From contig NC_088301.1 of the NCBI RefSeq assembly GCF_032854445.1, positions 17,506,018 through 17,570,017 on the forward strand: a stretch of DNA of 64,000 nt, in the 5' to 3' direction. Of this stretch, positions 31,849 to 60,713 are shown in pieces. The translations under genes were made by a program, and so were the position numbers. How positions within the stretch are numbered: the first letter of the stretch is position 1; the number at the start of each line of letters is the position of its first letter. The notes beneath the pieces were generated by a model. That model was not told the origin of the DNA. It did no database searches and was given only the letters and a program-made list of their open reading frames with translations. Source of the DNA: Liolophura sinensis (lineage: Eukaryota; Mollusca; Polyplacophora; Chitonida; Chitonidae).

Positions 31849-31909
31849 ATGGAGGATCGCAAGAAACTGATTAGCCGAGCTCTTCTTCTTGTGATGGGTA
31901 TAACATTTG
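31849..31909 (+). CDS. RPTP-B exon 1: start codon and signal peptide
   Basis: An ATG opens MEDRKKLISRALLLVMGITF, a basic N-terminus followed by a hydrophobic core, as in a signal peptide. It is cut by a strong donor (GTAAGT) in phase 1, the phase shared by all later ectodomain exons. The start lies 4.5 kb upstream of the lectin exons on the same strand. A diverged second copy lies at 23174-23234. The link to the receptor is inferred from phase, position and duplication, not from a transcript. Confidence 0.62.
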
Positions 31910-32370
31910 GTAAGTATATTACTTACTGAGTTAGAATGTATTTGTTCAACATTTGTCACTGTGGAAAATGTACAGCGACACATTGATTGTCGCTTATGTA
32001 GTGAAGTTATCTTTAAGATTAAAAACCGGTACAGCCATTGTATTGACAGATGAGGAAATAAATGTGACTTTCTCTTATCTCGTTGCCGTGGCTTTAGGCT
32101 TTTAAATGACATTTTTCCTACTTATTGGTGTTGGCTTGAACACGTTGGCGATATGTTTCCACTTCTGCCTCCCTACTTCTCCATGCTGATGACAACAACC
32201 GTAAAGTCACCATACTGCAAACAGTTACTTATTTAATGGTTAGTTTATATATAAGCTTGTCTAGGACTTGAATAGCAGATGGCCAAAGAGATCATGCCAT
32301 TATCATTTATGGGGACCAGTTTGGGACGGAGTTGCCAGATTTGCTTACATTAAAATAACATCTGTAACAT

Positions 32371-32458
32371 AATTTATTTATTTGTTTGATCGGTGTTTTA
32401 CGCCGTACTCAAGAATATTTCACCTATACGACGGCGGCCAGCATTATGTCACGGAGGA
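32371..32458 (-). repeat. SINE family 1, truncated
   Basis: Tail, TTTTACGCCGTACTCAAGAA and TACGACGGCGGCCAGCATTA, then a jump to CACGGAGG of the head. It lies in the first intron of RPTP-B, at a place where the duplicate 23820-23880 lacks it. Confidence 0.82.
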
Positions 32459-34059
32459 CCCTCTGTAACATAATCAAAAAAGCAGTCACAGTTATTCATC
32501 AGTGAACCATCTCAAATTACTAATCATGACGTTTACGCCTGTATCTTGAAGAGAAAGAGAGTTATGAAACCAATAACCCGGACATAGACTATAATTAAGA
32601 CACCAGAAGATACACACAGTATCTGTAGCATCAAAACGGCGCAATGGCTTGGAAGTTAGCACCCCAAGTTACTAATAAGAAATGTCATCATTTTAACCCG
32701 TTGGCATTTTGTTTTGGTCCGTGTACATGGTGTTTTAGGTACTGTTTATTTTTTAAGTTGTTCTCCAGTGCTGTATTACCAGAAAGAAGATGATTTAGAC
32801 TATTTTGTTTTACAGTAGGTGCACAACAATGTTTAGGACAAACTCCATCTAGTAATACACCCAGTCTTCACTGTTGTCTTCGCGCATCATCTACATTGTT
32901 TTTCATTACAGAATTTCCTGACATGCAACTCTAAAATCCTTCTGCCGATTGATCCTATACTACAAAATATAACATATGCTTCATATATTTATTTTATATT
33001 ACTTGTAAACAATTTCAAATACGGCAGTGTCAGAAACAGGGCTTAGAGTGAAGTTGATAAGAGATTAGGTATCTGGTGTCACTTTCCCCCAAGACATACC
33101 AGAGCATGCCACTCGCTTTTGAATAATTCTGACGTCACCCATGTCAGTGATGTATTGCCGTCGAAACTGGGCTTGTGCAGTTTAACGTTATTACTTAGAA
33201 AAAAATGATCTAACTTCATTTTCTTTGTAAGGATATGAATTTTTACCATATCGATGTGTAGAGCTCGTGTTGTAACGTACAGCTGACTAAAGACAATTTA
33301 CAGAGTATGACTGATTTACAGGCAGCTGAATATAGGCGACTCGCTGAAAGAAACAGACTATTGTGTATGCCATCAGTCCCATGCTGGTGAATAAAACTAT
33401 TCTCCTACCCCTTCTGAGTAGTCTTACTTGTCCACACTGTAAACATATTTGAGAGTAAAACCTAAACTGCACTCACATTTAATGCCAATTGTGTAGTAAC
33501 ATAAAGTGTGGAGAATTAAAAGTACAGTGCCGTTTTGTGTGTTTTTACACCTATAGTGCTACAAGGGCCCAAACATAATTGATGTGATGAATTGTTAAGT
33601 TTGGCATAAACCCCGTGGATACATAATTACCAGTATGATATTTACAAAGTAACAGGTAAGGTGAGTGTATGTAATTCGATGGCAGTACCCATGCTGTATA
33701 TGTACACCAGGTATTTGTATAGAGAACTGTTTGTAGAGTACTGTCATATAAAATATAGAAAAAATGGTGCGCATACATACAAAGAGATCATTAAAAAAAA
33801 CCCAGGCGAGGACCTGTCCCACACGCCAAACTCAGTCGGGCTATTGTGTCACGCCTGAGACGAACTGTTCACTCTGCTATGCTAATTTCAACTCTTACTG
33901 CTTAAGGTCGTATTATATAGTCACATTTCCCAGTGATTTTTGCTGATATTTAATGTTCCGACAACTCAAGGTTCTGCTGGCTTGTCCGGTCATACATGCG
34001 AATGGTTGCCAACAATCTTGTAAAGGGTCGTTTCCCAGGTCACTTCCAGATTTTCTTCC

Positions 34060-34125
34060 ACTATAATTCTGACCGCCGTAGTATAAGCAAAATAATATTG
34101 AGTACGGCGTAAAGCATAAATAAAG
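34060..34125 (+). repeat. SINE family 1 tail fragment, + orientation
   Basis: CTGACCGCCGTAGTATAAGC, GAGTACGGCGTAAAGCATAA and TAAA are the 3' end of the family read forward. Confidence 0.7.
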
Positions 34126-34374
34126 TGTGCCGACTAATTAAATTCATAAAATAGAACATTCGCGAGAACAAATCAATTGGATCTGTTCCACAATCATCAC
34201 GTTTAACATTAAGAACGTATGACTCCAAACAGACCTTACTGAACAACTAAGAATGCATATAATGTAGGAAATTAGGACGGGACCATGCAAGGAGAAGCAC
34301 ATGTTAAAAAGACGTAAAGTATGGTGTAGGCAAATGAATGAAATCAGTATTCAAATCGCGTATCAATCTAGTAT

Positions 34375-34475
34375 GTAAGTTGACGATAATAAAATATGCA
34401 TCTCGGTTGCGCTTTGATTCCAACTCTTCATGCATTGTATACCAAACGTGGCGATTTAATTCAACGCGATGGATA
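34375..34475 (-). repeat. 3' end of the RT relic family, reversed
   Basis: GACGATAATAAAATATGCAT and TCGGTTGCGCTTTGATTCC are the reverse complement of the 3' end seen at 11762, 28158 and 52706. Confidence 0.6.
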
Positions 34476-58242: not shown

Positions 58243-58393
58243 CTATATTTATTTATTTATTTTATTTGATTTGTGTTTTATGCCATACTCACGAATATTT
58301 CACTTATACGACAGCAGCCAGCATTATGGTGGGGGGAAAAAGGGCAGAGCCCAGGTGAAATCCACGACCATCCGCAGGTTGCTTGCCCACAAT
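58243..58393 (-). repeat. SINE family 1, truncated, unit B orthologue of 15962
   Basis: Tail, TATGCCATACTCACGAAT, ACGACAGCAGCCAGCATTAT, CCATCCGCAGGTTGCTTGC. Same truncation point as in unit A. Confidence 0.82.
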
Positions 58394-58466
58394 CAAATTA
58401 AAAAAGAACACTGATACGTTTGATAATGTAGAATGCAGATGTTGCGCTTGTTAAAAAGGGACAAAC

Positions 58467-58640
58467 AAATTTATTTATTTATTTGATTGGTGTTTTGCGC
58501 CTTACTGAAGAATAATTTACTCATACGACGGCGGTCAAAATAATGATGTGAGAAAACGTACGGCCGGAAAGGAAGCCAGAATGAATTGAAACTCAGAGCG
58601 ACCACACTGGGGAAAGTCTCCTGGGTTATTGGGCTGCAGT
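58467..58640 (-). repeat. SINE family 1, internally deleted, unit B orthologue of 16193
   Basis: TTTATTTATTTGATTGGTGT, TACGACGGCGGTCAAAATAA, GGCCGGAAAGGAAGCCAG. Same internal deletion as in unit A. Confidence 0.78.
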
Positions 58641-59217
58641 GGAATGCTGATGTCCTCTGCTATAAGGGACCCCAAACAAAAACAACAGCGCCAATGTAGC
58701 TATAAATGAATGCAAGGTTAATGATGAAGTTTTAAATCTCACCTTGTGTCTAGGACCTTGGGATATACTGGCCATTGCAAGGAAAGCATTTTGACCCATT
58801 TGTGGTGAAAGTCAAGGACAAACAAGAGTGCGAGGGTTTTTCGGTGTGGACGTATCATTTGTCTCACAAGGATACGGTAAGAATCCTGGGACCTGCAATA
58901 GCATGACAATATTACCGTTAGTTTCTGTCATGGCGATTTGGGACAATGGAAGTTTATCCACTAAATCCGATCAGATGGAGGCAATATTTTATGTTTAAAA
59001 GTATTCATGGAGTAGACAGCTTATGCAGGAACATAAATCCCCAAACAATGTGTTGATCTCGACATTTGTTTGTAAAAGTATGTCATATTTGTGCCCCCTG
59101 GATACGCTTACACAATGATTTTAGCGTTCTACAAAGTGTATGTGTTTTACACAGTGAAAAGTTTTACTGTTTTTCAAATCTTCGAAAACATAATATTCTT
59201 CTTATGTGTACTTGCAG

Positions 59218-59786
59218 AAAGTAATGCACCCTATCAAGCAGTTCCGGTGTAACTTTTGGACCGGGGATCCAGCCCTCAACTCGATAGCCTCACTGCTGTC
59301 CGTCATAGAAGAGGCGACGCAGTGGCAGCAAAAGACAGGCAACGTACCAGTTTTGGTACACTGTAGGTAAATTGCAGTTGCAATCTTAGTATGTGGTTAC
59401 TTCTTTGAAGTTTTACTCTGTGTGCAGAGAGTTGTTGTGTATAAGGTGATATATGCGACACTGTGGCATAATGCAAATGGATGACAAATCATCCTTTTTA
59501 ATGTGTCCAATATCTCATGTAATTTCTCATATATAAACGTGGTACCAGAATGACAGTGCGTTATGCCGTGTACATTCAAGTAATGTGGTCACTGAGTGGT
59601 GCAAAGAAGTGCCGCACATCATATAGTGCTCTGATTGTCTTGATGTTCAGAGACGGCGTGACGAAAAGCGGTCTGTACTGTGTGGCCACGTCAGTGATAG
59701 AGAGACTGAAGATGGACGAGGAAGTGAACATCATCCACACGGTGAAACAGATGAGGGCCAACAGGCCACAAATCATCACAGATCTG
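59218..59786 (+). CDS. RPTP-B D2 WPD-equivalent and P-loop exons (59218-59366, 59651-59786)
   Basis: Same degenerate motifs as copy [12 protein letters not shown] in place of a WPD loop, and [14 protein letters not shown] with Lys for the catalytic Arg. Their presence in both copies shows that loss of D2 activity preceded the duplication. Confidence 0.87.
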
Positions 59787-60713
59787 GTAAATAACACACA
59801 ATATCGGGTTATAGTCAAATTGTCGATATGTGCATATATGTATAATGTCTTTGCTAGACCCAATTCTTACAAAATTACATGCGACCACTCTCCCTTATAT
59901 TTGTTTGGTAATAAGTGGTATTGCAAATTTTCACGCATATGGCGATGTGAATCTCTAGTTTTTTTAGATAATAACATCACGGCATTTTGAGTAATTCTAG
60001 ACATGTATGTCTTTGCTACATTTGTATGCACATGTACAACGTTTTTGCTATAAACAATTACGCTTTAGGCATGGTGTGAAAGGGTGTCTAAGTTGCTACT
60101 ATTTAAGTATAAAAGGTAGAATAAGTCCATGATTAAGGTAAAGATCTTAAGATTAAGAGAGGACATATTTCACCGGTCACGTGTTAACTTTTGTAATCTA
60201 TTATTGTGTCGTCACTGTTCTAGTGCTACTCTCAGTACATACCTGTTTGTAGTTCACACAATTGCCATAATGCTAGCTGAATAGAGACAGTCAATATTAA
60301 TATTTTCGATGCAGAATAACCCATATATTTAATTTTGTTAGGAGAGCCATATCCACAATTTACGCTAGAAATTCACAACTCAACTCGATTACGGACATAA
60401 TTATGAAGTTTAATTGACGTACATGTAGTCCCGTATCTGTATAACGTAAATAACTCAGACATTAGATAGTTAAGCTGGGACTTGGATATTTGACCCCTGT
60501 TCATCTGTTGAAATGTTGATTACATGGTATGCAGAGTTTGTCCGGTACCCCACGTTATGTGAGATAACTTTACGGTGCAAACCCTGTATCCCTTCATTGC
60601 AAATGATATATTCCCTATATTTTGTCCTGCATTTACAGAATCAGTTCCAGTTCCTACATCAAGTGGCTCTGAAGTATCTGGAGACAGCCCACACATATGC
60701 TAACTTCGTGTAG

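Follow-up and report, generated by a model that had tools for sequence, protein, structure and literature searches.

Copy B and its paralogues

The window analysed here is a 64,000-nucleotide stretch of the genome of the chiton Liolophura sinensis (C7:17506018-17570017), in which copy B, a gene copy at 31849-60713 on the + strand, lies downstream of the 3' part of a second copy, A. In both, exons for a transmembrane (TM) helix and for two protein tyrosine phosphatase (PTP) domains, D1 and D2, follow exons for an F-type lectin and EGF-like modules. The genome was searched over 632 contigs (609,464,459 bases; C7, 60,359,117 bases), and copies A and B were compared with copy C (C7 17.585-17.600 Mb) and with copies R1, R2 and R3 (C7 17.72-17.83 Mb).

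Copy B opens with an exon (31849-31909) that carries a start codon and a putative signal peptide (MEDRKKLISRALLLVMGITF) and ends in phase 1, and a counterpart of this exon was found in A, C, R2 and R3. The second exon (34830-34934), a Cys-rich module termed EGF0, contains an in-frame TGA at 34832-34834. The lectin is divided between two exons, of which the first (36390-36629) holds two residues of the fucose triad, His and the first Arg, together with loops CDR1, CDR2 and CDR4, and the second (36930-37139) holds the second Arg. An EGF-like exon with eight Cys (37827-37976, weak profile support) and the final EGF-like exon ahead of the membrane, EGF2 (39708-39860), complete the ectodomain; a degenerate EGF-like exon between them (38760-38920), frameshifted in C, R1 and R2 too, was placed outside the copy B model. 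The TM helix exon (44978-45089) ends in phase 2 and is followed by a basic stop-transfer or juxtamembrane exon (46006-46103, RRRRREAHK...) and an acidic juxtamembrane exon containing NPYVNADVV (47323-47480). D1 begins with an exon reading KSRY where KNRY is expected (47835-47901) and continues through one in which the frame is lost (48837-48911; YDHSRV...DYINACYIN in other copies, with one extra base relative to A, R1, R2 and R3), through 49208-49244, 49813-49910 and 50706-50831, and through the exons bearing the WPD loop and VVVHC (53995-54146) and the P-loop SAGVGRTG with NMVQT (54831-54966). After the D1-D2 linker exon (56259-56408) and the first D2 exon (57345-57444), four further D2 exons (57573-57646, 57864-57998, 58754-58876 and 59218-59366) have WTGD in place of WPD, the next (59651-59786) has Lys at the Arg position of HCX5R, and the last (60639-60713) reads ...TYANFV in the D2 frame before the stop. 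All of these features lie on the + strand.

The same exon order was found in four copies (A, B, R2 and R3), namely signal peptide, EGF0, lectin exons 1 and 2, EGF-like exons, EGF2, TM, the RRRRR exon, the acidic juxtamembrane exon, D1 and D2, in each case on a single strand with AG/GT junctions and compatible phases. The phosphatase part consists of eight D1 exons (linker counted in) and seven D2 exons. Introns of the modelled ectodomain are in phase 1, and in A, B, R1, R2 and R3 the TM exon has a phase 1 start that fits the end of EGF2. For copy A the TM exon (4544-4655, +) and the juxtamembrane, D1 and D2 exons (5142-18419, +) fall in the window with every splice site intact, and the exons for its lectin and EGF modules precede the start of the window. 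The copy A model is open over 24 exons, all with AG and GT, and stops after 972 amino acids; that of R3 is open over 23 exons (923 amino acids). Both models omit further EGF exons, and R1, modelled from EGF2 onward, is open over that part. A preliminary description of this DNA had proposed that exon phases link the parts of one receptor; the elements were indeed all present in order, on one strand and in compatible phases, and what was not borne out was copy B as a working receptor, given its TGA and frameshift. That the exons are joined in one product we infer from their splice phases and collinearity, from constraint in each half, and from snail proteins of like design that are in print. A stray copy of the signal-peptide exon lies between A and B (23174-23233, +; 70% identity, donor altered).

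The F-type lectin

The fucolectin-like domain proposed for 36390-37139 was confirmed, at the level of sequence, as an F-type lectin. The copy B lectin matched PDB entries for FBP32 (3cqo, E=7.1e-16) and eel agglutinin (1k12, E=3.6e-7), and a profile of eight copies matched the same structures at 3.5e-19 and 1.7e-7, respectively. In copy A, the Pfam family F5_F8_type_C_2 (galactose-binding-like) scored 44.8 bits against a cut-off of 27.8; an NCBIfam scan of the copy A lectin gave no match. Cys 42, 101, 120 and 144 were invariant in 8/8 copies and supply both disulfides of the fold (Cys50-Cys146 and Cys108-Cys124), Cys 42 and Cys 144 being aligned with 1k12. At the cation motif h2DGx (x = N, D or S) the Asp-Gly was retained and the last position departed from the motif, with AVDGR in 7/8 copies and AVDGG in R3.

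In the eel lectin AAA, as given in the review's account, fucose is contacted by His52, Arg79 and Arg86, with Glu26, His27, Tyr46 and Asp81 as loop residues and Leu23 and Phe45 forming a methyl pocket (PMC5712786). For the chiton lectins, near-full-length stop-free matches from 20 loci and further regions were sampled, giving 13 first halves and 10 second halves. The triad His was present in 10 of the 13 first-half exons (Phe in two, R1 among them, and Gln in one), the first Arg in 13/13 and the second Arg in 10/10 second halves, and the triad was aligned in copy B. Within the first half 39 of 82 columns were invariant, and five of the six further AAA contact residues fell among the 18 most replaced columns (p=0.0016); in a profile alignment, which places His27 in a gap, four of five fell among the most replaced columns (p=0.0075). 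Because the contact residues were mapped post hoc, in an exploratory step made after the variable columns were known, and because some of the 13 lectins are close duplicates, both p-values serve as a guide only.

The proportion of nonsynonymous differences (pN) slightly exceeded that of synonymous differences (pS) in 12 of 74 nine-codon windows of lectin exon 1, all of them in three stretches near contact loops. The nine-codon maximum was matched in 4/2000 column shuffles for lectin exon 1 and in 157/2000 for exon 2 (copy at about -26 kb excluded). No claim of positive selection in the lectin loops is made. Among sister copies, replacements concentrate in the sugar-contact loops and D1 and D2 are near-constant.

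With known F-type lectins (eel AAA, 1k12; striped bass FBP32, 3cqo; oyster bindin) the chiton domain shares the sequence family, the His-Arg-Arg triad in most copies, both structural disulfide positions and a diversity focused on loops. It differs from them in its place in a membrane receptor with a phosphatase, in a longer loop between the two Arg and in a calcium motif whose last residue is Arg. The F-type lectin review nowhere uses the word phosphatase (PMC5712786).

EGF modules, phosphatase and module exchange

EGF-like modules were assigned from their cysteine pattern and from weak PDB matches (an EGF-like protein, 5e-4; SREC-1, 0.005), and a profile search of the EGF exons gave laminin-EGF at E=0.19, under its cut-off. 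Of the MEGF-type ectodomain proposed earlier, the EGF-like exons were retained, with no curated profile over its cut-off. Modules of MEGF/SREC type (weak SREC-1 match) are shared with the Draper/MEGF10 and SREC receptors, in which, to our knowledge, no phosphatase occurs.

In copy A, Pfam Y_phosphatase was matched in two stretches (2.2e-134), and D1-D2 of R1 matched RPTP-alpha (PTPRA) at E=7.7e-132, the closest solved relatives being RPTP-alpha, sigma and LAR-type enzymes. A TM helix followed by tandem PTP domains places the family among the receptor-type PTPs (RPTPs). The D1 domains of A, R1, R2 and R3 carry the catalytic motifs FTAWPDHG and HCX5R, as well as NMVQT; in copy B the exons bearing these motifs are present downstream of the frameshift. 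The D2 domains of A, R1, R2 and R3 have FWTGD for WPD and HCX5K for HCX5R, and since Lys replaces the catalytic Arg, D2 should be inactive, that is, a pseudophosphatase. The tandem PTP domains of the preliminary description thus hold for the family as a D1-D2 pair with catalytic motifs in D1, and D2 is without them. Tandem D1-D2 and a D1 with all catalytic motifs are also found in vertebrate RPTPs (PTPRA, LAR, CD45), from which the chiton proteins differ in the HCX5K and WTGD of D2; we know of no F-type lectin in the ectodomains of these vertebrate proteins. Two short motifs, TYANF at the C terminus and YVN in the juxtamembrane part, are candidate Grb2-type sites by resemblance. At C13:7959036-7960592 an RPTP was found with both PTP domains in a single 891-codon open frame, unlike the many-exon family described here.

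Across copies, the ratio of nonsynonymous to synonymous substitution rates (dN/dS) was 0.25 for EGF0, 0.45 for the lectin, 0.51 and 0.68 for the EGFs, 1.0 for TM, 0.24 for the juxtamembrane part, 0.19 for D1 (B excluded) and 0.20 for D2. Constraint is evident in each half and is stronger in the signalling one.

The two halves of copy A differ in their nearest relatives. Pairwise differences (D1a exon of B omitted from B pairs) between A and R3 were 12.0% in the lectin and 7.0% in D1, and between A and R1 were 22.5% and 1.6%, respectively. With introns included, DNA identity between A and R1 was about 80-83% at -0.5 to 4 kb and 96-98% at about 5.5-17.5 kb (1.5-kb bins), the post-TM half of A (window 4544-18419) being about 97% identical to its R1 counterpart (C7:17726706-17740496, introns counted), and the EGF0-lectin stretch of A was 88-90% like R3. 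In 200-base bins, identity between A and R1 climbed to 94-99% from about 4.9 kb, directly behind the TM exon (4544-4655); at 4.1-4.9 kb A was about equally similar to R1, R2 and B. Because identity switches past the TM exon from an R3-like lectin half to an R1-like phosphatase half, copy A is, on these comparisons, a mosaic of two lineages, brought together via recombination or conversion.

Interpretation and the genomic array

Copy B is read here as a decayed gene in a large tandem family encoding single-pass receptors; the intact members (A and R3) are most likely glycan-recognition receptors, and this reading is held with good confidence. The protein would run from a signal peptide through an EGF-like module, the F-type lectin, further EGF-like modules, the TM helix and a basic juxtamembrane segment to an active D1 and a pseudophosphatase D2. 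The ligand of each paralogue's lectin head would be a glycan, fucosylated or of a related kind, that microbes, parasites or other cells carry; binding would alter the clustering of the constant D1 phosphatase or access to it, and the change in D1 would tune tyrosine phosphorylation in the receptor-bearing cell, probably a haemocyte. Of this chain we infer the joining in a single mRNA, the binding of sugar, the cell type and the direction of the signal. In the eastern oyster, the published account gives more than 40 RPTPs as higher in circulatory agranulocytes (PMC13070813).

Several observations weigh against this reading, some for copy B and others for the family. In copy B, a TGA stands at codon 22 in exon 2 (34830-34934), which starts TG TGA, versus TT TTT in A, C and R3 and TT TGG in R2; an alternative AG six bases further on could bypass it. 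The D1 exon at 48837-48911 measures 75 bp, versus 74 in A, R1, R2 and R3, and reads ATGACCC where those copies read ATGACC, giving YDPF and then a stop. Copy B carries both lesions; it probably represents a pseudogene, or else a truncated form, and as assembled (14x HiFi) it could encode at most a lectin-EGF-TM protein without the phosphatase. One splice donor is lost in R2 (CT for GT), and the first lectin exon of C is frameshifted. The triad His is absent in 3/13 lectins, and insertions ahead of the first Arg and between both Arg break the exact HX24RXDX4(R/K) spacing of the fucose motif. No EGF family was found by profile search in copy A at E<=0.1, and many units of the array are without a detected TM or PTP. 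Since the excess of pN over pS is slight and limited to the 12 of 74 windows, the variation of the contact loops may be relaxed constraint. The immune role, finally, is argued by analogy.

Such lesions could also mark a mostly decaying expansion, in which duplicates arise and rot and most have little function. The damage in B, C and R2, the degenerate copy at about -26 kb and a TM dN/dS near 1 are what would be expected of it; we consider it possible, though doubtful, given the dN/dS of 0.19-0.25 in D1, D2, the juxtamembrane part and EGF0, the intact A and R3, and stops in only 5/49 genome-wide EGF0 matches, copy B among the five (95/95 candidates scored).

The preliminary description had called the system poorly described, which did not survive, because the lectin-EGF-PTP receptor design is already in print for SudRes1, a schistosome-resistance locus of the snail Biomphalaria sudanica (2025; PMC12297450). 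In the portion of that report consulted, the locus has a genome-wide association link and encodes RPTPs with MEGF modules and a galactose-binding domain (GBD); 17 such genes were annotated (3 + 14), the haplotypes differ in their ectodomains, with EGF loss between them, and the resistant genome examined there showed EGF loss (PMC12297450). Compared by description, the chiton family has the same extracellular MEGF modules and galactose-binding-like fold, a single TM, tandem PTP domains and a clustered arrangement. It differs in host (chiton versus snail), in number (37 matches of the D2C exon at >=60% identity here, 17 genes there) and in that the domain termed GBD there is here an F-type lectin with a triad and loop variation. 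Among the matches listed in the open-access literature, no pairing of lectin and phosphatase was found besides the B. sudanica work. New here are the lectin identity, the focus of variation on the contact loops, the division of D1 and D2 and the exchange point beside the TM exon. This receptor type is thereby extended to another molluscan class, beyond the schistosome-resistance locus of a snail, and the galactose-binding-like domain of such receptors can be an F-type lectin whose contact loops differ from one paralogue to the next. Should the snail domains prove alike, a testable ligand class would follow there (fucosylated and related glycans), as would repertoire change via exchange beside the TM exon.

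Recognition of gametes or of self, instead of immunity, is unlikely. It would liken the family to oyster bindin, an extremely diverse F-type lectin, and in the review's account oyster bindins diversify via selection, splicing and recombination; against this, bindins are sperm acrosomal lectins for which the part of the review consulted mentions no phosphatase (PMC5712786), and the architecture found here is tied, in the consulted portion of the snail report, to parasite resistance (PMC12297450).

As the preliminary description had proposed, the genes form a tandem family, with the same order in A, R2 and R3. Genome-wide, the D2C exon had 43 matches, of which 37 were at >=60% identity (54/54 candidates scored), and at least 89 merged lectin loci were found. 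Of the 89, 46 had a same-strand locus as their nearest downstream PTP locus within 60 kb and none had an opposite-strand one; for the other 43 there was no PTP locus within 60 kb downstream (both among the matches listed). The TM bait, which detects close copies only, was found at 10 places, every one beside a D2C match (27/27 candidates scored). In the home cluster (C7 17.15-18.53 Mb) lectin units outnumber D2, with 32 EGF0 matches (partials counted) versus nine D2C matches. Copy C (C7:17585298-17600308) and a unit at 17650 kb (C7:17648264-17664417) have lectin and EGF exons, with no TM or PTP found; homology of C to B and R1 ends about 2.8-2.9 kb beyond EGF2, and the expected TM site of the 17650 kb unit matches sequence downstream of C. 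The two units could represent soluble forms, remnants or alternative ectodomains. A single protein with many lectins is disfavoured, because EGF0, the exon that follows the signal exon, recurs near lectin units and C has a signal exon of its own.

In a reading with alternative ectodomains, a single TM-PTP block would serve several upstream lectin-EGF units, each joined to it in turn by splicing, as constant and variable parts. Such use would suit the clusters in which a PTP locus has at least two, and as many as eight, merged lectin loci upstream on its strand, among the matches listed, the phase 1 of every ectodomain exon, and the signal exon and donor-ended EGF2 of the ectodomain-only C. We regard it as improbable, since the lectin of C is frameshifted, C and the 17650 kb unit share post-break sequence, as expected of duplicated remnants, and the next TM lies about 70 and 126 kb away, a distance that splicing would have to bridge. 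Equally speculative is a variable/constant glycan repertoire, in which a few near-identical TM-PTP blocks would be served by a larger lectin-EGF stock, most variable in its contact loops, through germline exchange just past the TM exon, as seen in copy A, and in its boldest form also through splicing of several upstream modules to one shared block.

Least probable is that two adjacent gene types, secreted lectin-EGF genes and separate TM-PTP genes, give the receptor as an artefact of adjacency: the surplus of EGF0 over D2C matches in the home cluster, the different histories of the halves of copy A and the lack of a TM or PTP found in C and the 17650 kb unit would fit, and are countered by the phase 1 start of the TM exon in phase with EGF2 in five copies, by the 46 same-strand versus 0 opposite-strand lectin-PTP pairs among the matches listed, by the annotation of the combination as a single protein in the consulted portion of the B. 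sudanica report (PMC12297450), and by a separate TM-PTP start exon not having been noticed, with no systematic search made.

Further clusters of same-strand lectin and PTP matches were seen at C7 5.86-6.35 Mb, C7 20.09-20.46 Mb, C15 0-0.77 Mb, and on C14 and C23, and several of them have at least two lectin loci for each PTP. Identical scores were obtained for four second-half lectin exons near C7:6.0-6.04 Mb, three of which are spaced about 9.4 kb apart.

In the window, tRNA and Rfam scans at default thresholds gave no match. Open reading frames at 41020-43823 (-), with counterparts at 942-3530, lie in the EGF2-TM introns of B and A and may be mobile-element remains; five open reading frames of the window (three from this intron of B, one, at 1627-2037, from the corresponding intron of A, and one upstream of B) matched no Pfam family over its cut-off. 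A short interspersed repeat has many copies in the window on both strands, in pieces up to about 93% identical (e.g. 22232-22376, 28334-28583, 45407-45667 and 54394-54610).

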